From the NCBI RefSeq assembly GCF_947623445.1, contig NC_135246.1, positions 16,661,856 through 16,725,855 on the forward strand: a stretch of DNA of 64,000 bases. The letters run 5' to 3'. The position numbers were made by a program, and so were the translations under genes. Origin of the DNA: Clavelina lepadiformis (lineage: Eukaryota > Chordata > Ascidiacea > Aplousobranchia > Clavelinidae). The notes under the pieces are model-generated. The model worked only from the letters and a program-made list of their open reading frames with translations, was not told the DNA's origin and ran no database searches. The stretch's first letter is position 1, and each line of letters begins with the position of its first letter. This document shows, in pieces, positions 4,785 to 35,200 of the stretch.

Positions 4785-7700
4785 ATGAGTACCAGTGGCA
4801 GTTATGACGATGTGTCTTGTCCTATATGTCTGGATACTTTACGAAAACCGATTCGAATATTGACTTGTGGACACAATTTTTGTCAAGTTTGCTTGGTGGA
4901 GTATTCTCGAACATCGACGACATCACCAAGGTATAATGTAAATATACAGGTTGATAAGCTGATTGTGGGTTGTTATTGGTGCATTACACGTTTGCTTCAG
5001 CTGAACAATTTGTAATAAAGCAAACAAACTGAACTATGTAGAGAAAAAAGTTCGTTCTGAAAGCAAAAAAAAAAACAATGAACAGAATGAAAACTATATT
5101 AAATATCGTAGATATATTGTAATACACTGAAAACATTTGGCTCTTAAACAAACAATACTGTAGTAGGCTATTTATTTATATGAAGTTACTGAATCCATTT
5201 TTTCACTAAAGTTGTCCAACATGCCGGAAAGTAATCCACGTGGACTCCAACAGTGTAGAATCTTTTCCTCGAAACTGGACAGTGGAAAATATGATTGAAC
5301 GACTTAGTATTTCAAACAAGGTAATATGTCAAAATTGTTTGCAAATTGCAAGTTGTAAACTTGTAAGTTTCTAGGATATACTTCGATTAATTGTTTTGCT
5401 ATTCCATATTATTGCCTTTAACTGTACAGGAGCAACCGACCACCTCCTCGGCAGGCTCGGCGAGATTTGGCGGAGGAAGAAAACTGAAAAGTCAGGAATC
5501 GATACAATTACGAAGTAATTTAGTGTTTAATTTATATCAAGTATTGACGTTGATATTGCAACCAATGATAATTGTATTTGGTAAAAAAATCAAGAATTAT
5601 AAAAATTATATTTTTAACACTTGTTTTCCGACTGTCTGTCGAAAGTCGAATCCTCTGTGTAACCGTGTGGAACCGGATATACAACAATCTTTAATTCTTT
5701 GAGTTTGACCAAAAGACTCAAAACCCCAACGTAGAATTAAATCAAATCTGCCGGACCACTCTCCAGCCGAGCGCCACACACTAAAAAACCACGAATTCCA
5801 ACACGGCCAAGAAAATAAGCGCGTGGCGCTGATTACTAGGTCCTCAAGGATAGCGGAGTAACGCGTCAAAAGAAATGAGCTAAAACCATGCACATGTAGT
5901 TGGTAAAAAAGTGCGGCAGTGCGCGAGCAGTCATAAAAACCGACAAGATTACAGACAAATGAAGCAATGCACCGTGCCAATAGAAAAAATGTTAACACAC
6001 ACACACACTGGACTAAATTACTGTATAAGAGTGAAGTAAACAAACTCTTCATAGACACATTAAGATAAAAACTCCATAACAATTTAAGGGATTCTAGATA
6101 TGAAAACAAACTCTAAATAATAATAAATAGCATACACAGTAAACAAATGCCTTATAAGCTAGGTCAGGGCTACTCAACTATTTTTAGCAAATAAGGTCCA
6201 GTTACAAAAGTTCAAAATTTGCTTAGGTCCGTTATAACTCTCATGAAATAATTTACAGTCATGCAAATGTATTAAAATACGTTATATAAAACAATATAAT
6301 TCTCTGGATAGGTGTTAATTTAATTTTAAAATCTTTGGATTTTTTAACACAACATGAAAAACGGTATATACAAAATTCGTTAAAGCGGTATTAGCAAAAG
6401 CAATAAGCGAAATTTATTTATTGTTCTGTTAGTCACAGCTATAGTGGGAGAATTGTCGTTACTTATTTCTTGCTAGTTCTTTAAATTTTGGTTCTAAATT
6501 AGCGAGAGCGAGTGGTGAAGGGTTTCATTGGTCATACAGATGCGAAATTTATTCTTTATGAAGTTCATGTTTGAAAACGCTGACTCGCAGCTGTGCATTG
6601 TGACGTCAACAAGGCTTGTTTGAAATTGTACTATTGTCTGCTCTTTTTTTGTTTTGGCAAATCAACAATAATGGATTTGGTTTTGTTAAAAAACTCGTGT
6701 CCTTTAGGAAGTCACAAATATCCTTGTGACTTCATTGATTGCCCCGATTGACAAACGACCTATTAACGAAAGCCACTAGACTAGTTTGAGCTACCACTTA
6801 CACACTTGCTGATTAATTAAATAAGCAGGAATAAAAAAAACTAATGATAAACGATTTCATTTGCGTAAATGCTGAGACAGATAAGGTCCGGATTCAACAC
6901 TGAAAAGGTCCGCATTCGGACGGCGGTCCACCAGTTGAGTAGCCCTGAGCTAGGTGAGACAACATTAAAATGCAGCGCTTATAAAACAGGTGCCTAAAAA
7001 TATCCCCTGACACTTTCATTGGACTATTTCAATCTGAGGAATTTTCAGCTTACGAGTTACATTTGCAAATGTAAAGTCAATAATAATGAAATAATGTAAA
7101 GAAGTTTTTTTTCTAAATTCTGGACGATATCGATTCTACTGTTAGTTTAAATCATTACTGAATCTTCGTCATTTCCAGCTTCATTTATTACACTCAGGAA
7201 ACCTCATCTGCGGAAGAGATAGTAGGATGCTCTCAGTAGGCGGCACAGACATTTTTCACTTATTTATTTGTTGTAAACAAACATTTGATTTAAAAAGTGT
7301 GTGATGGGTATCGCTCGTTATTTGCGATTTGCCTGTCACGCATGTTGTTTGCTTTGAGAAAGCGGTATAAGCACTTTCATGACAAGCAATCGATTTAATA
7401 GTTATCGAGATATTGACGAAACTTCCGTTTACTTAATACTTGTGCGTTGGATTAACACAAGCAGTTTTTGAGCGCTCGGTTCTTATACGTAAGATATTAT
7501 TGGAAGTGACGCGCCACTTTGAAAGTCGGATTCTGTGGTCGATGTAAAGCGAAAGTCACTCGAGCGCCACAAGATAAACGTGTCTAAGATTGGGATGAAT
7601 ACAAGGAATAAACTAAAACAAAAGATATAAGCAAAAACGCACAAAAAAACAAACAAAACAATAAACAGATAAAGGGTCCATTTGAATTTAGAAGTGGAAT

Positions 7701-8692
7701 AGCGATTTAATTTGGAAGAAGTTACTTTCTGCTCTGTTTTGCGCTATCTGTTTTACATTCCTTTCATATGCGACGAAGACATGTTATGGGTAACTTTGTG
7801 ACAAACGGTATATAGCAATTAAATAACTAACATATTTCTTTTTAATAGGCTTAGTTGAGCAAGATATGAAAGAAAAGAGGTATGATGACGCAATTCCTAT
7901 TTTACGACGCATCGTACGTTCAGTGGAAAGTTACCACAAAATAAATCACGTCATCAACTTGGTACGATGCTTGTTTGAAACCAATCAAATGGAAGAAGCA
8001 AAAGAATTTTGCAAAGTTCTTCAATCTACGTTGAACTCTGCAAACTTTACATCTGCAACGAAAGATATTTGCAATAATTGTGACGTTGAGTTACTTAAGT
8101 TAGCTGAAGATTTTATTGGAAAAGATTACAAATCTTCCATCATGTTGTTGAGATGTGCTTTTAAGGTTATTGCAACATTACATAGCGGTGAACAAACGAA
8201 AAACTGCAAAATACAGCTTTTCGCATGACGAAGGTCGCTGAAGAAATGTCTCGTCAAAATAACCACAACGAATTCAAAAGCCAGTTTGGATTTATGGATG
8301 AAATTATTGACGATATGCTTCGAGTGACAGACGTTGACTTAAAAACCAAATGCGAAAAACTCGCTTGGTGCTTGAAGCACAGAGCTTTGTGTTTTTATAA
8401 TACTTCTTTTATTTCGCAATCAATCGAAGACAACAAACAAGCAATTCTTCTGATGAAAGCAGCATTCGGCGACGATGCCAAATTTTACCATGTTGTTGGG
8501 ATTTGTTATAACAACCTTGGAGCTGCATATGAGAATGACGAACAACTTATGGAAGCAGAGACGTCGTATTTGCAAGCAAAGCATGTATATGAAGCTGTCA
8601 CTGACTGGAATGACGACCACCACAAGCAATCATCCATCGGCTTAACAGAAAATAATTTAAAAAGAATAAGTGATCAACAACATAATTCATAA
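4785..8692 (+). pseudogene. RING-TPR gene B, frameshifted in exon 4
   Basis: Exons are 4785-4930, 5212-5320, 5430-5514 and 7849-8692, joined by GT-AG introns with phases 2, 0 and 1. Exons 1-2 give a C3HC4 RING of about residues 12-53 (CPIC, CGH, CLVEY, CPTC). Exon 3 is a serine/glycine-rich linker ([18 protein letters not shown]). Exon 4 carries the TPR-like region. Near 8196 a 4-bp deletion relative to all siblings breaks the frame: the upstream frame stops after about 120 codons of exon 4 and the rest resumes at 8225. The likely product is a RING protein truncated in the middle of its helical domain. Intron 3 (5515-7848) contains a hAT element. Confidence 0.8.
6165..6947. mobile_element. 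Non-autonomous hAT element in intron 3 of gene B
   Basis: The termini CAGGGCTACTCAACT and AGTTGAGTAGCCCTG are exact inverted repeats, flanked by the 8-bp duplication AGCTAGGT (6157-6164 and 6948-6955). Both features are typical of hAT transposons. The minus strand at about 6494-6610 encodes SCESAFSNMNFIKNKFR and the following MTNETL, the conserved C-terminal dimerisation motif of hAT transposases. It is therefore a deletion derivative of an autonomous element. It is absent from the same intron in other copies. Confidence 0.92.
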
Positions 8693-11679: not shown

Positions 11680-14600
11680 ATGAGTACCAGTGACAGTTAT
11701 GACGATGTGTCTTGTCCCATATGTCTGGATACTTTACGAAAACCGATTCGAATATTGTCTTGTGGACACAATTTTTGTCACATTTGCTTGGTGGAATATT
11801 CTCGAACATCGACGACATCACCAAGGTATAATGTAAATATACAGGTTGATAACTTGATTGTTGGTTGTTATTGGTGCATTACACGTTTGCTTCAGCTGAA
11901 CAATTTGTAATAAAGCAAACAAACTGAACTATGTAGCGAAAAAGATTTCGTTCTGAAAGCAAAAAACAATGAACAGAATGAAAACTATATTAAACATCGT
12001 AGATATATTGTAATACACTGAAAACATTTGGCTCTTAAACAAACAATACTATAGTAGGCTACTTATTTATATTAGATGGTTGAATACCTTTTTTTACTAA
12101 AGTTGCCCAACATGTCGAAAAGTAATCCACATGGACTCCAACAGTGTAGAATCCTTTCCTCGAAACTGGACGGTGGAAAGTATGGTCGAACGACTTAGTA
12201 TTTCAAAGAAGGTAATATGCCAAAATTGTTTGCAAATTGCAAGTTGTAAACTTGTAAGTTTTCTAGGATATACTTCGATTAATTGTTTTGCTCTTCCATA
12301 TGATTGTCTTTAACTGTACAGGAGCAACCGACCACGTCCTCGACTGGATCAGTCAGATTTGGTGGAGGACGAAATTTGTCAAGTCAGGAATTGATACAAT
12401 TACAAAGTAATTTAGTGTTTAACTTATATATCAAATATTGACGTTGAGTTTGCAAGCAATGGTAATGGCATTTATCTTAAATAACAAAAATTTATAAAAT
12501 AACTTTTGTAACAATTATTTTCGACTGTCTGCCGAAGGTCGGTAAGTCGAATTCCCTCAAGTTCGTCTCTCGAATTCACGGCCAACCGTGTAAGACCAGA
12601 TTTACAACACGTCGTTTATTTCTTCAGTCAAAACCTCAACGTTGAATTAAATCAAATCTGCCGGAGAACTCTCCAACCGAGCGCCACACACTAAAAAACA
12701 CAAATTCCAAAACGGTTACGAAAATAAGCTCGAGGCGCTGATTACCAATTAGGCCCTCAAGGACAGCGGAATAACGCGTCACGAGAAATGACCGAAAACC
12801 ATGTACGTATAATTGGAGAAAAAGTGCGGCAGTGTGAGGGCATTTATGAAAACCGACAGCTTTACACGAATGAAGCAATGCCCCGCGCCAATAAAAACAA
12901 ATGTTAACACATGCACACTGAAATAATTACTGTATAATGGTGAAGTAAACAAACAGTTCACGGACACACTAATATAAAAGCTCCATGACAGTTTATGGGA
13001 TAGTAAATATCAAACCAAACTCTAAATATTAATAAATAACTTACACTGTAAACCAATGCCTTACAATTTGCGTGACATGACATTAAAATGTAGTGCATAT
13101 AAAACAGGTGCGTAAAAATATCTCCTGACACTTTCATTGGACTGTTTAAATCCGAAGGATTTTCAGCTTGCGAGTTGCTTTTGCAACTGTAAAGTCCATA
13201 GTATTTAACTAACAAAATAAAGCTTTTTTCGAATGCTGGACGATATCGATTCTAGTGTTGGTTAAAAACATTAACGATTCATCGTCGTTTCCAGCTTCAT
13301 TTATTTCATTCAAGAAACTTCATCTGCGGAATAGATAGTAGGATGCTCTCAGTAGGCGGCACAGAAACTTTTAACATATTTATTTGTTGCGAACAAACAT
13401 TTGATTTTAAAAGTGCGTTATGGGTATCGCTCGTGATTTTCGATTTGCCCGTCACGCATGTTGTTTGCTATAAGCGGTAAGCGCTTTCTTGACAAGCAGT
13501 CGATTTAAAAGTTATCGCGATACAGACGAAACTATCGTTTGCTTAATACTTGTGCGTTGGATTAACACAAGCATTTTGTGAGCGCTCGGTTCTTATACTT
13601 AAGATATTGCTGGAAGAGACGCGTCACTTTGAAAGTCGGATTCTGTGGTCGATGTAAAGCGAAAGTCACTCGGGCGCTACAAGATCAACGTGTCCTAAAT
13701 TGTGGTGATTACAAGGAATAAACTAAAAAATATCTAAAGTGAAACGCACAAAACAAACAAAACAATAAACAGATAAAGAGTCCGTTTAAATTTAAAAACG
13801 GAATAGCGGTTTAATTTAGAAGAAGTTACCTTCTGCCTTGTTTTGCGCTATTTGTTTAACATTCTTTTCATATACGACGACGACATGTTATGCGTAACTT
13901 TTTGACAAACGGTATATAGCAATTAATTAACTAACATATTTCTTTTTAATAGGCTTAGTTGAGCAAGATATGAAAGAAAAGAGGTTTGATGACACAATTC
14001 ATATTTTACGACGCATCATACGTTCAGTGGAAAGTTACCACAAAATATATCACGTCATCAACCTGGTACGATGCTTGTTTGAAACCGATCAGATGGAAGA
14101 AGCAAAAACATTTTGCAACGATCTTCAATCGACTTTGAACTCTGCAAACTTTACATCTGCAGCCAAAGCTATTTGCAAAAATTGTGACGTTGATTTACGT
14201 TACATAGCTGAAGATTTTGTTATAAAAGATTACACATCTTCCATCCTGTTGCTGAAATGTGCTTTTAAGGTTGTTGCAAAATTACATAGCGGTGAAGAAA
14301 AACTTCAAAAACTGGAAAATACAGCTTTTCGCATGACGAAGGTCGCACAAGAAATGTCTCGTCAAAATAACAAAAACGAATTCAAAAGTCAGTTTGGATT
14401 TATGGATGAAATTATTGACGAGATGCTTCGAGTGACAGATGTTGACTTAAAAACCAAATGCAAAAAACTCGCTTGGTGCTTGAAACACAAAGCTTTGTGT
14501 TTTCGTAGTACTTCTTTTTATTCGCAATCAATCGAAGACAACAAACAAGCCATTCTTCTGATGAAAGCAGCATTTGGTGACGATGCCAAATTTTACTGTG

Positions 14601-20270: not shown

Positions 20271-23200
20271 ATGAGTACCAGTGACAGTTATGACGATGTG
20301 TCTTGTACCATATGTCTGGATACTTTACGAAAACCGATTCGAATATTGTCTTGTGGACACACTTTTTGTCACATTTGCTTGGTGGAATATTCTCGAACAT
20401 CGACGACATCACTAAGGTATAACGTAAATATACAGGTTGATAAGTTGATTGTTGGTTGTTATTGGTTCATTACACGTTTGCTTCAGCTGAACAATTTGTA
20501 ATGAATTAAACAAACTGAACTATGTAGCGAAAAAAAGTTCGTTCTGGAAGCAAAAAAAAACAATGAACATAATGAAAACTATATTAAATATCGTAGAAAT
20601 ATTGTAATGCACTGAAAACATTTGGCTCTTAAACAAACAATACTGTAGTAGGCTACTTATTTATATGAAATTACTGAATCCATTTTTTCACTAAAGTTGT
20701 CCAACATGCCGGAAAGTAATCCACATGGACTCCAACAGTGTAGAATCCTTTCCTCGAAACTGGACAGTGGAAAGTATGATCGAACGACTTAGTATTTCAA
20801 ACAAGGTAATATGTTAAAATTGTTTGCAAATTTCAAGTTATAAACTTGTAAGTTTTCTAGGATATATTTCGATTAATTGTTTTGCTCTTCCATATTATTG
20901 CCTTTAACTGTACAGGAGCAACCGACCACGTCCTCGGCAGGCTCGGCGAGATTTGGCGGAGGAAGAAAATTGAAAAGTCAGGAATCGATACAATTACAAA
21001 GTAATTTAGTGTTTAATTTATATCAAGTATTAGTAGTATAGTGTTGCCACCTCAGGACTCCGCCCGCCACCGCCACCGCCAACCGGCGCCATCACGCCAA
21101 CCCGCCAACCCGCCAACCGGCGCCATCACGCCGGCAATCTGATTAGGTCATTCAAGTAATTAGGTCATATGAAAGAGAAAAGTGACGTCATAATTCCATA
21201 GCGCCACCACACGTAAAGAAAATGTTAGAAAAAGAGTGTAAAAGTGACGTCATAGTTTTCGTTAGCGCCACCACACGTAAAGAAAATGTTAGAAAAAGTA
21301 CAAGTGTAAAAGTGACGTCATAGTTTTCGTTAGCGCCAACGTGCGGTGTTTTAGATTTCTAGAGGAAAAAACATCTTGGGTTTGTGGATATTCGATATCA
21401 GTTACATCATAGTTTCAGTGTAAAGTATACAGAACGATGAACCGTATGCATTTCCACCTGGAATCATATGGAGAAAAGCCTAGAGTAAGAATGCGTTAAT
21501 TGACACACTAACATGACCTGGTTATGAAATCCAGCTTGGGTTGAAATAAGCCAGACTTTAGAAACAAAGCATTGGAAGGTATTACAACCAATCCATTCGA
21601 TTCCAGGTGTAAGAGAAGAATAAATAATAGCTGGCATCCAGATGTGATTTGTCTTGACCCGATTATAAAGGCAAATCCAAACCTGTCTGATTGAAACAAG
21701 TGTGTTGGACAGGTCGAAAGGGTGGTATATTGCGCGATCCCACCAATCCACTCACAACCAGTTGTGGGAAAGAATAACGGAAAGCTGGCATCCAGATGTG
21801 ATTTGTCTTGGAAAGCTTGCATCCAGATGTGATTTGTTTGTTTTGTTTTCGTGATGTGGCATATAATACTTGGTGTTTGAGAATTGAAATCATTACATCA
21901 ACGAATACAAAACGAAGCGATATGTCGTAGTCATCTTTGTTAAAAACTGTACTTGTTAGCGTTAGATATAATCGTTTTGGTTTTGTAGTGTATTTAAGTA
22001 GATTAAACTGAGCTAAGCTTAGTGTTTTAGCAATAAATGGCGTTGACTTGTATATTATAATGTTCTAATCTTATGGTGTATTCAGTTGACTCGTGAATGT
22101 TTAGAGTGGGGGGGTAGTGGTAAACTTGTTTCACATCGATAATAATTAATGAATAATATTGGACTTACTAATAATATAAAACTTATTGTTTTAGTAATAA
22201 ATTGTGTTAATTTGTTGTTTACAAACTCTTCGGGTTCTATATCTATTGTTACATCATAAACGAAATGCTAACCTAAATAAAACAAAAGAGAGGGGAGAGA
22301 GAGAGAGAGAGAGAGGTTTGTACATTATGATGTTATAATCTTATGGTGTGAAATATAATACAATGGGTCATACGAGTGTGGAATGAGGTGATTCGAGTGC
22401 GCTACAAAAGCGAAATAAACCGGATATAATACTGTCACGAGTACTGTGATGTTTCGAGAAAAAGCTGTTATAATCTTATGGAGTAATCAGTTATAATCAG
22501 GGTGAGTAAGCTTATTTCACAACAATAATGGATAATATTATTATACTATATTACTATTACATGTATTTTATATTACTATGGTAGAAAAGTCAATATTTAT
22601 ACATGATAAGTTGCTTAGGGAAATAACTTGTGTTACGTATCAATATAATGTTTATGATAAACAATTTATTAACCTAAATGAATATGAAATGTATCACGCT
22701 TTGTCATATTTACACCGTAAAATGTTTAAATTTTTTCAAAATTAACAAATTCTATCACCAAAATACAAAAAATGAAATACTTTAATATGTTAAAACTCAT
22801 TTACAATAAAGATATTTTTCCTAAATACTGTTTGGTTTGATACAGTTTATAATCTTTGTGTTATATATTTAACATTTTAAACATTAAAACCATAAGGAAA
22901 AAGTGTAGAATCGACATAAATGAATATGAAATGTATCACGGTTTGTCGTATTATAACCATAAAGCGTTAAATTTTTTGTCAAAATTAACAAATTCTATCA
23001 ATCAATTAGTTATAGTGAAGTTCTTGTGGTACTTTATTTTACTAAGAATCGTGATAAGATGAATACATTAATGAATTTTGTTTTAAACATGAAAAGGTCT
23101 TTTTTCTTAAGAATTATTGAATAAGCGTGAATATGTCTACTACTGAAAAAACAGAAAAGAATGAAAACCAAATGCGAACCGATGAACACAATCATGATAA

Positions 23201-26200
23201 CAGAAACACAGAATGTCTATCATCAAGAAACTATCGAGTCAGTAAACTTATAGAAATAGAATAAAAGCATAAGCGAATAGCATCTAATGTATTCGTCTCA
23301 TTTCGGTTGGAATAAATATAATTAAGAATTGAATATGAGATAGTGATTCCGGATGTGAATTGTAGATGAATAACCAAAATCTTGTTGTCTTAGATATACT
23401 TTAGTTTGATAAAAGTATGAGGAAATAGTATGTAAACAAGATACGGTTTAATGAAGCTAGTCATTTCTTACACATAAAACAGGGTTTTTCAAGCTTTCTC
23501 ATGTTTGACATTCCAAAAGAACTTGTCTTCAATTTTATACATTGATTCGTTGTATAGTATTTGTGGAGATAGGGTAGTGAGAAGAAAAGCAATGAACTGT
23601 TTTGTATATCATTGCGATTCAGTTTCCTTATTTATCGAGATAGTTATCATTTAAATTATCTCTTTACAGAATGAAATACAAACGGATTACCTTATCGCGG
23701 ATTTTCCAGATCTAGAAAGTGACGGGAGGTTATTGAGACAAATTAGAGACCCACCAGGACAAAAAAAGTCGCTACATTCCTCCTGGTAGGTTGGAAAATC
23801 ATGTTTGAGAATCACATTCCAGAAAAACGTAGGTTTTTACATCACCTTCCTATTTCGATAAGTACAGGTGATCCAACAACTGAAACCTATCGTCTTTCAA
23901 CTTTCAAACTATTTCCCAGAGAAGTACAAATCGATGTTCGTAAGTTAGCTTCTGCTGGTTTTTATTTCACTGGTTTTAAAGACAGAACCAAGTGCTTCAG
24001 GTAACTAGAGAGTTTGATATAGGGTTTGATTCTAATCGAAGCAATATGTTTAAATAAGTTAGGTGATTATAGTTTTACATGTAAAAACACTACCCTCAAC
24101 TTCTTTTCAGTTGTGGTCAATCTGTCCAAGAATGGGAATTCAAGGATGATCCAAAACTACTCCGATGGCACAGATCTGATTGTGATATCATTCACGGAAC
24201 GGAAACAAGAAATATACCAATCAGTTAGTTACGATAAAGTTTTAAATTTATAAGAAAAAGGATACAGATCGAATCAATCCGAAATATATTCATGATCTGT
24301 AATACCTACAAAGCGTAAAGATGGAATGATATTGAATACGTCTCAAAAAGCGTGAATGAACCGAACCAAATCTTAATTCATTTCACAGTTTCACGAAATA
24401 CCATATGAAATTACCTTACTATGTTACCGTTTATGCTGTGATAGTAGAATATGTTACGTGAGTAGTGTATACCCTATTCATATGACGTTACATCCATTAG
24501 ATTGTAAATATTGGTAACTATTTCTAGATTCCATTCTTCATCAATTCGAACTCACGCCAACCCATGACAATGAAAACGCTACAAGATCAGTAACACGACC
24601 TCTAACATCTGGGTATCCACAGGCTTCAGAAGATCAAAGAAGACAAATTACAACAGGAAAAATCATTACAAATGGCATTGACATCAGAACAAATTCACCA
24701 AACGCCACGATGGCAACATTATTTCAAACTGCTACATTTAGGAATAGTTTATGCACCACACCTCCACCTAATGTAGTTGCATCGACCATAGCAAACTCAC
24801 ATATAAATCTTACTATGAATTTGAGTAACTTGTTTCCATGCTCAAATCCTGTGAATCCTCACATGAGGAGTGAAGAATCTCGTCTTCAAACTTTCCTGGA
24901 TCACTCCTCATCATGGCCTTCTCATAGGATTCATGCCACTCCCAGACAAATTTCAAAAGCAGGAATGTATTACTTGGGTGAGTGGATCAGATAAAGTACT
25001 GGTTGATTTGTTTCAAACTTAAGATTCAGGATCAAAAGTAGAAATTTATGATTTTCTAACGTTTTTTCCTTTATTACCCAGGTGTAAGAGATCGAGTAAA
25101 ATGTTGGTATTGTAATGGAGGGTTACAAAATTGGGAGAGAAATGACGATCCGTGGGAAGAGCACACCAAGTGGTTTCCAATGTAAGTTGAATTTTCCATC
25201 TCAATGAAGGGATTTCTCAGATTTTACTTTTTATGATTTCTATGTTTAACAAACCACTATACTTTATCCACAGGTGTGAGTTCGTTCTTCAGCAAAAAGA
25301 CCTAGATTATGTTCATCGGATCGTTTCTCGATTCCCTAACCTAAGAAGACCGCTAATTCAGAATCCAGCAAATCCAAACCAACTCGGGAATTTTCAATCG
25401 GGATTAATGTAAATCTCCTTAAGTCATCTTGGTTTGTTTGTTATATGTTATCATCTATTTCTTTGTTTAGTTTACGAAACGGACATCGAAATGATGGCCC
25501 CGAAATCATCGATCCGAGGGAAGAGGTAAGATCTATAGAGACGAAAGTGGACGGAGAAATGTCTTCGTCTGAGCTGATACAACAAGCAAAACGGATGGGA
25601 TTCGATGAAAGAATCATAAAAAATGCTTTGAAAAGGTGAAAAATTTGTTACTGGTTTATTACATTAAACTTACGAATCACATTGAAAACCAATCTTTCTA
25701 CAGGAAGTACGAGGTCACTGGTAATGGATTTTCTAGGCTTGAAATTCTTGTTGAGTCTATTCTCGCAATGGATGAAGAATCTGCTTCCAATAGATCTGAA
25801 GAAGCCTCAACAACTCCTTCTGCAGAATCCGGATCTGAAGAGATTCGTCGTTTACAAGAAGAAAGAACGTGTAAAGTTTGTCGAAACGAGCGAGCGAGTA
25901 TTGTGCTTATTCCATGTGGACATATTGCTTGTTGTATTGGTTGCGCTGAAGATACATCGATCTGTCCCATTTGTCGTTTGCGAATTCGAGAAAAAGTCAG
26001 ATCTTTCATTGTTTAAAGCAAAAGTTTGTGGAATTTAAGTAGCACTTTCGTAAATTATTTTCAATGTAAATGATTTTAGAAGATCTTCGCTTAATTTTTT
26101 AATAATTCTATAAAACTGGATGATAAATTTATTCAGATATACGTTTTCCAATATATTTTCTTTACCAGTTTCAAAATGTGCTTCGATTTTCTGTTTTCTG

Positions 26201-29200
26201 GGTTCTAGTTCACCGTATCATGAATCTATGGATGAATCAATCGAGTTCTTTTCAAATAAAAATCAACACTGTCCTATGGTGAATCGATGTAAATTGTATT
26301 TAGAGCACCACCTTGCGTTACCTTCACAATCAATTCAGTTACAAAAAATCATCGCTGGCTGGCAGTGTGATAACGTCAAACTTCTGCATACTTTTATAGT
26401 GTGATTTCAAACAAATCCTTCTAAAAACTATATTTTAAAACATATCGTTTAAACCGTGGAATGGAACGGTGAAAATTTTCTGGGGCACTAACTACAAAGG
26501 AGTTTGTGTACTGTTTTCTAAGGATTTTTTTTTCTTACACATGTACTGAAACTTTATCAGATACCTTCCGAAGATATCAAATTGTAAAAGTATGAATGAT
26601 AGTTCAATTATATTGCTTCATTTTTTACGGGGGAAATCATAATGTATCTGAGTTTCATGAAGAACTATTCACATAATGAAATGGAATAAATTAGGTGATG
26701 ATTAGGCGATGACTCAATCGTTTTTTCTTGTAAAAAAGCACTAACATAAAATACTATGGAATACAATGGCTATTAGGAATAATTTTTGACAGTGAGTAAT
26801 ACACACCTTTGTAATAATTGTATTGACTATTTACTCAAACACTTTCAACCAGTCAAATATTGTTACACTAGCACCACAGGCAAAATATTCGACATGCTAC
26901 ATATGGAAAATACTATGTTTTCTTCGTGTATCAACATATGCACTTTTAATTGATCGTTTTCGAAGAACTTTCTTTCACATAGTGGACAGCTATATTGAAG
27001 AACATTTAAAATATAGTTTTTCCCAAACAATGAAACTTGTACATAACTATTTTCTTTTCCAGTGCTTGTTAACTCTTGCTGTGTTGGTGAAAGCATAAAA
27101 GATACTTAACCATTTAAAATCGAGTTCTCACTGATGTATGATTTCTATGCTATTGTAAATACTTTAAAACTTTTTTTTTTTTTTTTTTTTATTCACTATC
27201 CAGACGTGTATGACCAGAATAATCATTAACAGTATTCATTAGAATAAAACTACGTAGAGTATATGAATACAATTCATACCTTTTATCAATACTTTCACGA
27301 CTCATAGCATTACTTCTTCTCTTCATTTGTTCAAGGGATGCGGTACTATCACAAAAAGAAGAAAATTATTGAATATATTGATATTGTACGGAATAGGATT
27401 ACTTCGTATTGTACTTATGTTATAACAAAGGCTTTTTTCTACCCCCAACTGATTCCCAGCATGTTTATCGCGATAATGTTTTTGATAAACATCTTTTCGT
27501 TTGTAGATTTTATCACACAGCTTACAGAGAAATCGCTGGTCATCATGCGTTTTTCTATGTCTTTTTAAACTATAGATTGTACTAAATTGCTTATCACAAA
27601 CATTACATTGATACATAACAGAAAGCATCTCCCTAAGTAACCTATCATATATAAATAAAGTAATATTCAATATCACTCATTATCGATGTGAAACAAGTTT
27701 ACTCAACCTGATTACAACTGCTTACATGATAACATCATAATTTTCAATTCTCAAACAAGAGGGAGATATATACCCTTCTCTACGGAAACACTTGAAATCA
27801 AACACATCCTTTTGTTTTCTCAAAACCTGATGGTGTACAACATAACTTTTTTCTCAAACAGATTGTTTTCCATGTTCCATATGTAGCATGTCGAATATTT
27901 TGCCTGTGGTGCTAGTGTAACAATATTTGACTGGTTGAAAGTGTTTGAGTAAATAGTCAATACAATTATTACAAAGGTGTGTATTACTCACTGTCAAAAA
28001 TTATTCCTAATAGCCATTGTATTCCATAGTATTTTATGTTAGTGCTTTTTTACAAGAAAAAACGATTGAGTCATCGCCTAATCATCACCTAATTTATTCC
28101 ATTTCATTATGTGAATAGTTCTTCATGAAACTCAGATACATTATGATTTCCCCCGTAAAAAATGAAGCAATATAATTGAACTATCATTCATACTTTTACA
28201 ATTTGATATCTTCGGAAGGTATCTGATAAAGTTTCAGTACATGTGTAAGAAAAAAAAATCCTTAGAAAACAGTACACAAACTCCTTTGTAGTTAGTGCCC
28301 CAGAAAATTTTCACCGTTCCATTCCACGGTTTAAACGATATGTTTTAAAATATAGTTTTTAGAAGGATTTGTTTGAAATCACACTATAAAAGTATGCAGA
28401 AGTTTGACGTTATCACACTGCCAGCCAGCGATGATTTTTTGTAACTGAATTGATTGTGAAGGTAACGCAAGGTGGTGCTCTAAATACAATTTACATCGAT
28501 TCACCATAGGACAGTGTTGATTTTTATTTGAAAAGAACTCGATTGATTCATCCATAGATTCATGATACGGTGAACTAGAACCCAGAAAACAGAAAATCGA
28601 AGCACATTTTGAAACTGGTAAAGAAAATATATTGGAAAACGTATATCTGAATAAATTTATCATCCAGTTTTATAGAATTATTAAAAAATTAAGCGAAGAT
28701 CTTCTAAAATCATTTACATTGAAAATAATTTACGAAAGTGCTACTTAAATTCCACAAACTTTTGCTTTAAACAATGAAAGATCTGACTTTTTCTCGAATT
28801 CGCAAACGACAAATGGGACAGATCGATGTATCTTCAGCGCAACCAATACAACAAGCAATATGTCCACATGGAATAAGCACAATACTCGCTCGCTCGTTTC
28901 GACAAACTTTACACGTTCTTTCTTCTTGTAAACGACGAATCTCTTCAGATCCGGATTCTGCAGAAGGAGTTGTTGAGGCTTCTTCAGATCTATTGGAAGC
29001 AGATTCTTCATCCATTGCGAGAATAGACTCAACAAGAATTTCAAGCCTAGAAAATCCATTACCAGTGACCTCGTACTTCCTGTAGAAAGATTGGTTTTCA
29101 ATGTGATTCGTAAGTTTAATGTAATAAACCAGTAACAAATTTTTCACCTTTTCAAAGCATTTTTTATGATTCTTTCATCGAATCCCATCCGTTTTGCTTG

Positions 29201-32200
29201 TTGTATCAGCTCAGACGAAGACATTTCTCCGTCCACTTTCGTCTCTATAGATCTTACCTCTTCCCTCGGATCGATGATTTCGGGGCCATCATTTCGATGT
29301 CCGTTTCGTAAACTAAACAAAGAAATAGATGATAACATATAACAAACAAACCAAGATGACTTAAGGAGATTTACATTAATCCCGATTGAAAATTCCCGAG
29401 TTGGTTTGGATTTGCTGGATTCTGAATTAGCGGTCTTCTTAGGTTAGGGAATCGAGAAACGATCCGATGAACATAATCTAGGTCTTTTTGCTGAAGAACG
29501 AACTCACACCTGTGGATAAAGTATAGTGGTTTGTTAAACATAGAAATCATAAAAAGTAAAATCTGAGAAATCCCTTCATTGAGATGGAAAATTCAACTTA
29601 CATTGGAAACCACTTGGTGTGCTCTTCCCACGGATCGTCATTTCTCTCCCAATTTTGTAACCCTCCATTACAATACCAACATTTTACTCGATCTCTTACA
29701 CCTGGGTAATAAAGGAAAAAACGTTAGAAAATCATAAATTTCTACTTTTGATCCTGAATCTTAAGTTTGAAACAAATCAACCAGTACTTTATCTGATCCA
29801 CTCACCCAAGTAATACATTCCTGCTTTTGAAATTTGTCTGGGAGTGGCATGAATCCTATGAGAAGGCCATGATGAGGAGTGATCCAGGAAAGTTTGAAGA
29901 CGAGATTCTTCACTCCTCATGTGAGGATTCACAGGATTTGAGCATGGAAACAAGTTACTCAAATTCATAGTAAGATTTCTATGTGAGTTTGCTATGGTCG
30001 ATGCAACTACATTAGGTGGAGGTGTGGTGCATAAACTATTCCTAAATGTAGCAGTTTGAAATAATGTTGCCATCGTGGCGTTTGGTGAATTTGTTCTGAT
30101 GTCAATGCCATTTGTAATGATTTTTCCTGTTGTAATTTGTCTTCTTTGATCTTCTGAAGCCTGTGGATACCCAGATGTTAGAGGTCGTGTTACTGATCTT
30201 GTAGCGTTTTCATTGTCATGGGTTGGCGTGAGTTCGAATTGATGAAGAATGGAATCTAGAAATAGTTACCAATATTTACAATCTAATGGATGTAACGTCA
30301 TATGAATAGGGTATACACTACTCACGTAACATATTCTACTATCACAGCATAAACGGTAACATAGTAAGGTAATTTCATATGGTATTTCGTGAAACTGTGA
30401 AATGAATTAAGATTTGGTTCGGTTCATTCACGCTTTTTGAGACGTATTCAATATCATTCCATCTTTACGCTTTGTAGGTATTACAGATCATGAATATATT
30501 TCGGATTGATTCGATCTGTATCCTTTTTCTTATAAATTTAAAACTTTATCGTAACTAACTGATTGGTATATTTCTTGTTTCCGTTCCGTGAATGATATCA
30601 CAATCAGATCTGTGCCATCGGAGTAGTTTTGGATCATCCTTGAATTCCCATTCTTGGACAGATTGACCACAACTGAAAAGAAGTTGAGGGTAGTGTTTTT
30701 ACATGTAAAACTATAATCACCTAACTTATTTAAACATATTGCTTCGATTAGAATCAAACCCTATATCAAACTCTCTAGTTACCTGAAGCACTTGGTTCTG
30801 TCTTTAAAACCAGTGAAATAAAAACCAGCAGAAGCTAACTTACGAACATCGATTTGTACTTCTCTGGGAAATAGTTTGAAAGTTGAAAGACGATAGGTTT
30901 CAGTTGTTGGATCACCTGTACTTATCGAAATAGGAAGGTGATGTAAAAACCTACGTTTTTCTGGAATGTGATTCTCAAACATGATTTTCCAACCTACCAG
31001 GAGGAATGTAGCGACTTTTTTTGTCCTGGTGGGTCTCTAATTTGTCTCAATAACCTCCCGTCACTTTCTAGATCTGGAAAATCCGCGATAAGGTAATCCG
31101 TTTGTATTTCATTCTGTAAAGAGATAATTTAAATGATAACTATCTCGATAAATAAGGAAACTGAATCGCAATGATATACAAAACAGTTCATTGCTTTTCT
31201 TCTCACTACCCTATCTCCACAAATACTATACAACGAATCAATGTATAAAATTGAAGACAAGTTCTTTTGGAATGTCAAACATGAGAAAGCTTGAAAAACC
31301 CTGTTTTATGTGTAAGAAATGACTAGCTTCATTAAACCGTATCTTGTTTACATACTATTTCCTCATACTTTTATCAAACTAAAGTATATCTAAGACAACA
31401 AGATTTTGGTTATTCATCTACAATTCACATCCGGAATCACTATCTCATATTCAATTCTTAATTATATTTATTCCAACCGAAATGAGACGAATACATTAGA
31501 TGCTATTCGCTTATGCTTTTATTCTATTTCTATAAGTTTACTGACTCGATAGTTTCTTGATGATAGACATTCTGTGTTTCTGTTATCATGATTGTGTTCA
31601 TCGGTTCGCATTTGGTTTTCATTCTTTTCTGTTTTTTCAGTAGTAGACATATTCACGCTTATTCAATAATTCTTAAGAAAAAAGACCTTTTCATGTTTAA
31701 AACAAAATTCATTAATGTATTCATCTTATCACGATTCTTAGTAAAATAAAGTACCACAAGAACTTCACTATAACTAATTGATTGATAGAATTTGTTAATT
31801 TTGACAAAAAATTTAACGCTTTATGGTTATAATACGACAAACCGTGATACATTTCATATTCATTTATGTCGATTCTACACTTTTTCCTTATGGTTTTAAT
31901 GTTTAAAATGTTAAATATATAACACAAAGATTATAAACTGTATCAAACCAAACAGTATTTAGGAAAAATATCTTTATTGTAAATGAGTTTTAACATATTA
32001 AAGTATTTCATTTTTTGTATTTTGGTGATAGAATTTGTTAATTTTGAAAAAATTTAAACATTTTACGGTGTAAATATGACAAAGCGTGATACATTTCATA
32101 TTCATTTAGGTTAATAAATTGTTTATCATAAACATTATATTGATACGTAACACAAGTTATTTCCCTAAGCAACTTATCATGTATAAATATTGACTTTTCT

Positions 32201-35200
32201 ACCATAGTAATATAAAATACATGTAATAGTAATATAGTATAATAATATTATCCATTATTGTTGTGAAATAAGCTTACTCACCCTGATTATAACTGATTAC
32301 TCCATAAGATTATAACAGCTTTTTCTCGAAACATCACAGTACTCGTGACAGTATTATATCCGGTTTATTTCGCTTTTGTAGCGCACTCGAATCACCTCAT
32401 TCCACACTCGTATGACCCATTGTATTATATTTCACACCATAAGATTATAACATCATAATGTACAAACCTCTCTCTCTCTCTCTCTCTCCCCTCTCTTTTG
32501 TTTTATTTAGGTTAGCATTTCGTTTATGATGTAACAATAGATATAGAACCCGAAGAGTTTGTAAACAACAAATTAACACAATTTATTACTAAAACAATAA
32601 GTTTTATATTATTAGTAAGTCCAATATTATTCATTAATTATTATCGATGTGAAACAAGTTTACCACTACCCCCCCACTCTAAACATTCACGAGTCAACTG
32701 AATACACCATAAGATTAGAACATTATAATATACAAGTCAACGCCATTTATTGCTAAAACACTAAGCTTAGCTCAGTTTAATCTACTTAAATACACTACAA
32801 AACCAAAACGATTATATCTAACGCTAACAAGTACAGTTTTTAACAAAGATGACTACGACATATCGCTTCGTTTTGTATTCGTTGATGTAATGATTTCAAT
32901 TCTCAAACACCAAGTATTATATGCCACATCACGAAAACAAAACAAACAAATCACATCTGGATGCAAGCTTTCCAAGACAAATCACATCTGGATGCCAGCT
33001 TTCCGTTATTCTTTCCCACAACTGGTTGTGAGTGGATTGGTGGGATCGCGCAATATACCACCCTTTCGACCTGTCCAACACACTTGTTTCAATCAGACAG
33101 GTTTGGATTTGCCTTTATAATCGGGTCAAGACAAATCACATCTGGATGCCAGCTATTATTTATTCTTCTCTTACACCTGGAATCGAATGGATTGGTTGTA
33201 ATACCTTCCAATGCTTTGTTTCTAAAGTCTGGCTTATTTCAACCCAAGCTGGATTTCATAACCAGGTCATGTTAGTGTGTCAATTAACGCATTCTTACTC
33301 TAGGCTTTTCTCCATATGATTCCAGGTGGAAATGCATACGGTTCATCGTTCTGTATACTTTACACTGAAACTATGATGTAACTGATATCGAATATCCACA
33401 AACCCAAGATGTTTTTTCCTCTAGAAATCTAAAACACCGCACGTTGGCGCTAACGAAAACTATGACGTCACTTTTACACTTGTACTTTTTCTAACATTTT
33501 CTTTACGTGTGGTGGCGCTAACGAAAACTATGACGTCACTTTTACACTCTTTTTCTAACATTTTCTTTACGTGTGGTGGCGCTATGGAATTATGACGTCA
33601 CTTTTCTCTTTCATATGACCTAATTACTTGAATGACCTAATCAGATTGCCGGCGTGATGGCGCCGGTTGGCGGGTTGGCGGGTTGGCGTGATGGCGCCGG
33701 TTGGCGGTGGCGGTGGCGGGCGGAGTCCTGAGGTGGCAACACTATACTACTAGTATTGACGCTGAGTTTGCAAACAATGATAGTTGCATTTGGTATACAA
33801 ATCAAGATTTTAAAAATTACATTTTGCAACACTTGTTTCCGACTGTCTGCCGAAGGTCGTTAAGTCGAATCCTCTATGTAACCGTGTAGAACCGGATATA
33901 CAGCAATTCGTTTATTGTTTAAGTTTGACTGAAAAACTCAAAACTCCAACGTCGAATTAAATCAAATCTGCCGGACCATACTTCAGCCGAGCGCCACACA
34001 CAAAAAAAACACAAATTCCAACACGGCCACGAAAATAAGCGCGTGGCGCTGATTACTAGGTCCTAAAGGATAGCGGAGTAACGCGTCACAAGAAATGATC
34101 TAAAACCATGCATGCACATGTAATTGGTAAAAAAGTGCGACAGTGCGCGAGCATTTATAAAAACTGACAAGTTTACAGACAAATGAAGTAATGCACCGCG
34201 CCAATAGAAACAAATGTTAACACACACAAACACACACACACTGATACACACAAATAAAGCTCCATAACAGTTTACGGGATACTAGATGTGAAAACAAACT
34301 CTAAATAATAATAAATAGCTCACACTGTAAACAAATGCTTTATAAGTTAGTCGATACAACATTAAATGCAGTGATTATAAAACAGGTGCCTAAAAATATC
34401 TCCTGACACTTTCATTGGACTATTTCAATCTGAGGAATTTTAAGCTTACGAGTTACATTTGCAACTGTAAAGTCAATATAATCAACTAATGTAAAGAAGG
34501 TGTTTTCCGAAATGCTGGACGATATCGATTCTACTGTTAGTTTAAATCATTAATTAATTAACTTAATTCATTAAAGGAATCATGGTCATTTCCAGCTTCA
34601 TTTATTACACTCAGGAAACCTCATCTGCGGAAGAGATAGTAGGATGCTGGCAGTAGGCGGCACAGAAATTTTTCACATAGTTATTTGTTGTAAACAAACA
34701 TTTGATTTAAAAAGTGTGTGTTGGGTATCGCTCGTGATTTTCGATTTGTCCGTAACGCATGTTGTTTGCTATGAGAAAAGTGTAAGCACCTTCATGACAT
34801 GCAGTCGATTTAAAAGTTAGCGCGATACAGACGAAACTTTCGTTTGCTTTAATACTTGTGCGTTGGATTAACACCAGCAGTTTGTGAGAGCTCGGTTCTT
34901 ATACTTGAGATATTGCTGGAAAAGACGCGTCACTTTAGAAGTCGGTTTCTGTGATCGATGCAAAGAAAAAGCCACTCGAGCGCCACAAGATAAACGTGGC
35001 TAAGATTGGGATGAATGCAAGGAATAAAATAAGACAAAAATATAAACAGAAACGCAAAAAAAACAAACAAAACAATAAACAGACAAAGGGTCCGTTTAAA
35101 TTTAAAAATTGAATTGCGATTTAATTTGGAAGAAGTTATACCTTCTGCCCTGTTTTGCGCTATTTGCTTTACTTTCTTTTCATGTACGACGAAGACATGT

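Follow-up and report, generated by a model that had tools for sequence, protein, structure and literature searches.

A 64,000-nucleotide stretch of the Clavelina lepadiformis genome (the window, to which all plain positions refer) contains at 21032-33751 an almost perfect palindrome of 12,720 bp, here called E0, with a gene for an inhibitor-of-apoptosis (IAP) protein in each of its two arms. This locus raises the question of what kind of element gives rise to such a mirror-image structure, and of what the gene does there. After comparison with relatives elsewhere in the genome (209,060,895 bases searched in 95 contigs; C1-C8 denote contigs, and L011 and similar names denote extracted loci), we consider that E0 is probably a satellite of the copy-back type, young and non-autonomous, that belongs to a Polinton/Maverick family of tunicates; its IAP gene would serve cell survival. 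An earlier note on the window had proposed a palindromic Polinton-type element with a captured IAP gene; that the palindrome is recurrent in the family and that the Polinton carries a separate single-exon BIR-RING gene are findings that go beyond it.

The insertion in the window

The left arm of E0 (21032..26908, forward), which begins with AGTAGTATAGTG, and the right arm (27875..33751, reverse) differ at 1 of 5,877 sites and enclose a single-copy centre of 966 bp (26909..27874); the self-alignment extends the inverted repeat slightly further, to 21028-26911 versus 27872-33755. The sole difference between the arms is a private change in the left one. The element has AG...CT ends, and AGTATT stands directly outside each of them, at 21026..21031 and at 33752..33757, as expected of a target-site duplication (TSD). 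Five tandem paralogues within the window can be aligned with the 300-bp flanks, and at each of them (sites ending at 5545, 12439, 40797, 46986, and 56098) the target is single-copy and the flanks are continuous, the target at 12439 being one base off AGTATT. The right junction at 33751/33752 is present in the assembly, and the sequence beyond it takes up the paralogue where the left flank leaves off. The duplication, both junctions, and the five empty paralogous sites therefore demonstrate that E0 is a genuine insertion, and the ends, arms, and centre are those that the earlier note had described.

Polinton relatives and recurrent palindromes

The first 400 bp of E0 match at least 61 aligned pieces in the genome, in agreement with the earlier expectation that the termini would have other copies. 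Nine loci (E1-E9) and a further member, E10, were extracted, and ends were scored in ten members (E0-E4 and E6-E10), with the nested E5 left out. These ten lie on seven contigs. AGTAGTATAGTG was found at 10/10 left ends and its complement at 9/10 right ends, and a perfect 6-bp duplication bounds nine of the ten, including E0; E6 lacks a right terminus. Polinton/Maverick elements are characterised by 6-bp TSDs and AG...CT ends.

Two members, E2 and E4, have no palindrome beyond their terminal repeats. In E2, three of the ten frames scanned matched Pfam above the cut-off: an integrase with rve and Chromo domains (51.2 and 41.2 bits), a packaging ATPase of Pox_A32/adenovirus-IVa2-like type (34.8 bits, cut-off 22.8), and a BIR-RING protein encoded by a single exon with an open frame of 229 aa. 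A full-length integrase is also present in E4 and E10, and the ATPase in E4. A conserved open reading frame (ORF) of 435 aa, a candidate capsid gene, occurs in E2, E4, and E10 and partially at C1:7.10 Mb, and a protease candidate was found at E 0.06-0.07, below the cut-off. Between copies, the integrase, the ATPase, and these two candidates have ratios of nonsynonymous to synonymous substitution rates (dN/dS) of 0.055-0.147, each with a significant synonymous excess. A polymerase candidate of E2 shows exonuclease-, A-, and C-type motifs in order across two ORFs, and a motif-B pattern had no match at the expected place in these ORFs. Because of the integrase, the ATPase, the ends, and the TSD, we assign the family to Polinton/Maverick. 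Of the full-length relatives with polymerase B and integrase that the earlier note had envisaged, the integrase is present in E2, E4, and E10, and the polymerase is a candidate seen only by motif order. According to PMC6431247, Polintons are 15-25 kb long and encode a PolB that is protein-primed and an integrase of retroviral-like type, together with a protease and an ATPase.

When the arm and centre of E0 were compared by blastn with the extracted Polinton pieces, only the terminal ~0.9 kb and one 90-bp stretch matched, and the arm had no blastn match to the E2 polymerase ORFs. The terminal segment at 21032..21928 (forward; its mirror, by symmetry, at 32855-33751) is 82% identical to the left end of E2 and 89% to its right end, reaches up to 95% to segments of the E4 ends, and starts with the same terminal 12-mer. 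E0 was not among the integrase matches (116 of 336 candidates scored) or among the matches of the capsid candidate. With blastn similarity almost confined to the termini and no match to the integrase or the capsid candidate, E0 is best classed as a satellite and not as a Polinton in its own right; the earlier link to Polinton/Maverick elements holds for the family, through relatives and termini, and not for the element itself.

Of the ten members with scored ends, eight are palindromic (E0, E1, E3, and E6-E10), with arms of ~4.6-7.3 kb. An intron-bearing IAP gene lies in both arms of six of these eight (E0, E1, E3, E6, E7, and E9), and E10 has the Polinton BIR-RING gene in both arms. The architecture of E10 is the most informative: its left end is the Polinton right end, from which the sequence passes inward across the genes of the capsid candidate, the protease candidate, and the integrase as far as L011:7008. 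A single flip then leads to L011:9903, from where the sequence runs back to that right end. Its arms are 99.85% identical over 4,609 bp, and the single-copy loop of ~2.9 kb is continuous with one of them. Judged by its sequence, E10 thus has the geometry of a copy-back genome, with both ends derived from one terminus; a single flip and a single-copy loop are accounted for if a polymerase leaving its template copies its own strand back. E0 shows the same geometry, with equal termini and a single-copy centre, and in E1, E6, E7, and E9 Polinton left-side sequence reaches into the polymerase ORF and is followed by the IAP gene.

Mismatches between arms number 8/6045 in E3, 1/5464 in E6, 4/6074 in E7, 1/7215 (plus 96 gapped nt) in E9, and 17/5143 in E1, which has 47 further gapped nt and a ~470-bp block in one arm. 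The E8 arms differ at 38 of 5642 sites, mostly within the central loop of ~134 bp; a gradient of divergence toward the centre was considered for this member and rejected, since the final ~70 bp of the arm account for every differing column except six. At C6:15108764-15137713 (L017-L019), several palindromic elements, of both IAP lineages described below, are nested or arranged in tandem.

The inner arms of E0 and E3 differ at 57-59 of ~4,556 sites and the two elements have the centre in common, but their outer 1.3 kb differ at 280-286 of ~1,270 sites with a further 258-259 gapped. The two arms of any one of these elements, by contrast, are nearly identical: 0/1,317 outer and 1/4,560 inner sites differ in E0, and 6/1,482 and 2/4,563 in E3. 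Both arms therefore change together, as expected under copy-back, because one end would be copied into two arms in each cycle.

The IAP genes of the satellites

The left-arm gene of E0 was modelled with nine exons over 23133..26016 (forward): 23133-23237, 23670-23785, 23868-24000, 24111-24223, 24528-24977, 25082-25181, 25274-25408, 25471-25635, and 25704-26016. Exon 2 is frameshifted, and the mirror copy in the right arm (28767..31650, reverse) has the identical frameshift, so that a fully intact nine-exon gene in E0 was rejected and the earlier view of two intact genes with matching splice phases had to be abandoned. Over exons 3-9 (468 codons), the reading frame is uninterrupted in either arm, and the product of these exons contains, above the Pfam cut-offs, BIR in two stretches (7.2e-36) and RING (1.4e-10); a UBA_BIRC2-3 match (E 0.028, 14.9 bits) is below its cut-off of 27.2. 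An in-frame ATG at 23801, which reads into the BIR1 exon (23801..24000, forward), is a possible alternative N-terminus and could give an E0 protein with both BIRs. The status of exon 1 as a host exon is doubtful: a 96% match to the surrounding DNA occurs in another inverted pair, at C5:407494/414793, where the other parts of the gene are absent, so that this stretch is probably element sequence.

Across the family, all nine modelled exons are open in the IAP genes of E3 and of E5b, as are exons 2-9 in four copies from the second lineage. Of the 14 element copies translated, 13 have exons 3-9 open; the exception is E9, in which Polinton sequence replaces the start of the gene and the model gives a broken frame. 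Host relatives whose BIR exons are split occur in tandem, in clusters at C1:27.5 Mb and C1:28.2 Mb, and of three host IAPs tested, one is open under the exon model and the other two align poorly at exon 5. The satellite gene resembles these tandem-cluster IAPs and, to judge from its exons and domains, is a host-type gene with introns, in line with the earlier view of a captured genomic gene. The genome contains at least 149 BIR matches, elements included, many of them in tandem clusters; expansions lie at C1:27.50-27.61, C1:28.21-28.29, and C7:10.68-10.94 Mb. Scattered IAP copies whose frames are broken under the model, at L054 (C4:9.02 Mb) and L056 (C1:11.28 Mb), are perhaps relics of older satellites.

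In an unrooted tree of 17 sequences, the element genes, which form lineages A (represented by E3) and B (E1), are together split from five host or scattered sequences with a support of 97 when the full region is used and of 72 with a shorter region, and A and B have in common an indel state that sets them apart from three of the five. Our results demonstrate coding constraint between the lineages, with a dN/dS of 0.285 for E3 versus E1 (80 synonymous and 92 nonsynonymous changes, p 2e-12), and element-host comparisons give the similar values of 0.265-0.268. The Polinton BIR-RING gene is also constrained between E2 and E10 (dN/dS 0.205, p 8e-4). For the IAP gene, this constraint is compatible with, rather than a demonstration of, protection of the cell during transposition.

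Origin of the palindromes and role of the IAP gene

We propose that the Polinton polymerase would start protein-primed synthesis at the shared termini and sometimes copy back (snap back) during end-to-end DNA synthesis, giving a linear molecule with the identical terminus at both ends and the identical sequence in both arms. The Polinton integrase would insert this palindrome in trans with a 6-bp target duplication, and Polinton proteins would replicate and integrate the product, which would multiply as a satellite. An ancestral satellite would have gained an intron-bearing host-type IAP gene before spreading and diversifying, so that each palindrome of that line would deliver two inverted copies of it. 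The IAP product most likely keeps cells with replicating elements alive: it would counter cell death caused by replication or integration, to the benefit of satellite and helper, and the Polinton BIR-RING protein would act likewise. As a more tentative extension, which we put forward as a possibility and would not yet favour, the palindromic satellites may form a self-perpetuating class whose arms are rebuilt from one end by copy-back in each cycle and which spreads an anti-apoptotic gene benefiting satellite and helper; they would be the counterpart, in an animal, of virophages or defective genomes equipped with a survival gene of the host.

Several results weigh against this scheme. The ORFs of the polymerase candidate had no Pfam, PHROG, or credible PDB match, and a genome search with PF03175 gave no match while its control searches were equally silent; the capsid candidate had no profile match and only two PDB matches, at E 1.2, and relatives of it and of the C-terminal polymerase ORF on viral contigs were sought and none confirmed. 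For the IAP-bearing palindromes, neither a parental monomer nor a turn-around junction was found, and gene conversion in place could also equalise arms. A fuller version of the latter idea is that two elements were joined head to head, or inserted into one another, and that chromosomal gene conversion kept the arms alike in the fashion of Y-chromosome palindromes. The near-identical arms fit conversion, and the E5 locus does contain several nested or adjacent copies; yet a single TSD pair bounds the whole palindrome wherever both ends exist, the divergence between the outer termini of E0 and those of E3 affects both sides at once, and the ~2.9-kb loop and single flip of E10 are predicted by copy-back and not by a simple head-to-head pair, so we regard joining as unlikely. 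Far less probable still is a fold-back artefact of the assembly or of HiFi reads, in which a missed adapter or a collapsed haplotype produces the mirror image. Such an origin would suit the almost perfect arms of E0 and a sequenced fragment size of 12-20 kb (given in PMC10884593), which is about the size of the element, but it is rejected by the TSD, by the right flank continuing the paralogue of the left, and by the five empty sites; moreover, TSDs in 9/10 members, the spread of the ten scored members over seven contigs, a single-copy centre, and several arm differences in most members speak against it. That E0 has nothing to do with Polintons, and shares only a generic TSD length and generic termini with them, would agree with the absence of a Polinton core-gene match in E0, but is practically negligible in view of the ~0.9 kb of terminal sequence similar to the ends of E2 and E4 and the terminal 12-mer common to E0 and Polinton members.

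The more serious competitor to a protective role is that the IAP gene is a selectively neutral passenger whose apparent constraint dates from its evolution in the host, prior to capture. Were A and B to stem from two independent captures, the constraint between them would be host history, and tests within lineages are weak: A has 8 synonymous and 10 nonsynonymous changes (p 0.03), B has 7 and 11 (p 0.09), and E1 versus E6 has 0 and 4. The BIR-RING comparison of E2 with E4 is not significant (dN/dS 0.43, p 0.23, 184 codons), and the E4 gene is frameshifted before its end. To these may be added the frameshift in E0, the broken frame of E9, and E8, for which there was no BIR among the matches listed. 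Against a neutral passenger stand the separation of A and B from the five host or scattered sequences, their common indel state, the open exons 3-9 in all but one of the translated copies, and the constraint on BIR-RING between E2 and E10. We therefore give the passenger explanation more weight than the other alternatives and still consider it the less likely one, and retain the reading of E0 as a copy-back satellite with a survival gene.

Known systems resemble these elements in part. With Polinton/Maverick elements, E0 shares 6-bp TSDs, AG...CT ends, terminal inverted repeats, and relatives with an rve-chromo integrase and a packaging ATPase; it differs in that none of those genes was seen in it (no search aimed specifically at the ATPase was made), that its inverted repeat spans nearly its whole length, and that a spliced gene of host type is present in two copies. 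Adenoviruses and other viruses with linear DNA make copy-back (snap-back) defective genomes, in which, as in E10, a single terminus supplies both ends and the sequence turns round once over a single-copy loop; unlike them, the palindromes of this family are chromosomal insertions that have multiplied as lineages and gained a gene. Baculoviruses and other viruses carry BIR-RING IAPs on virus-like DNA, and the single-exon BIR-RING gene of the Polinton has the same layout, whereas the satellite gene is host-like, with introns, two BIRs, and a UBA-like stretch, and resides on a non-autonomous element. Miniature inverted-repeat transposable elements (MITEs) and foldback elements are non-autonomous inverted-repeat DNA mobilised in trans, as proposed here, but arms of 4.6-7.3 kb, some with near-complete genes, arms that change together, and the Polinton link set the present elements apart. 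Capture of genomic host sequence is also seen in Pack-MULEs and Helitrons (in part after PMC6431247), in contrast to which the satellites hold a full BIR-BIR-RING exon set that is doubled and constrained between lineages. With its BIR domains and C-terminal RING, the satellite product resembles cIAP-type proteins and may inhibit caspases or death signals. Among the papers listed on Polinton/Maverick elements with IAP genes, palindromes, or non-autonomous or virophage-like forms, where subscription papers are sparse, none was recognised as describing such an element.

If correct, these proposals would mean that copy-back molecules have been caught as insertions and provide genomic footprints of Polinton replication, with a turn-around that can be read in E10. 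Polintons would spawn satellites that persist and diversify, and both partners could carry IAP genes. Virus-like elements might in this way, which is open to testing, found or reshape the large families of IAP genes that invertebrates have.

Further features of E0 and its surroundings were recorded. A 64-bp tandem repeat with three TGACGTCA sites lies at 21178..21338 (forward; mirror 33445-33605), and six of the eight TGACGTCA sites of the window fall within these two terminal blocks. The motif, a CREB/ATF-type (CRE-like) site, occurs in 1-5 copies within 600 bp of the end at 10/10 left ends and at the nine right ends counted, and the terminal copies may be promoter elements. Scans of the window with Rfam and for tRNAs gave no match. 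The insertion target was a repeated host unit of the window, and long TPR ORFs form a tandem array over 7827-58355, five of 287-289 aa and one split copy at 7827-8692. The centre of E0, ~96% identical to E3 over most of its length, contains a C2H2 zinc-finger ORF of 117 aa from stop to stop (27323..27676, reverse). Relatives of this ORF include inverted pairs ~9-12 kb apart (C8:5816272/5825768, C2:21234597/21244164, C5:406112/416556, and C2:500232/511791), which suggests that the genome may contain more palindromic elements.

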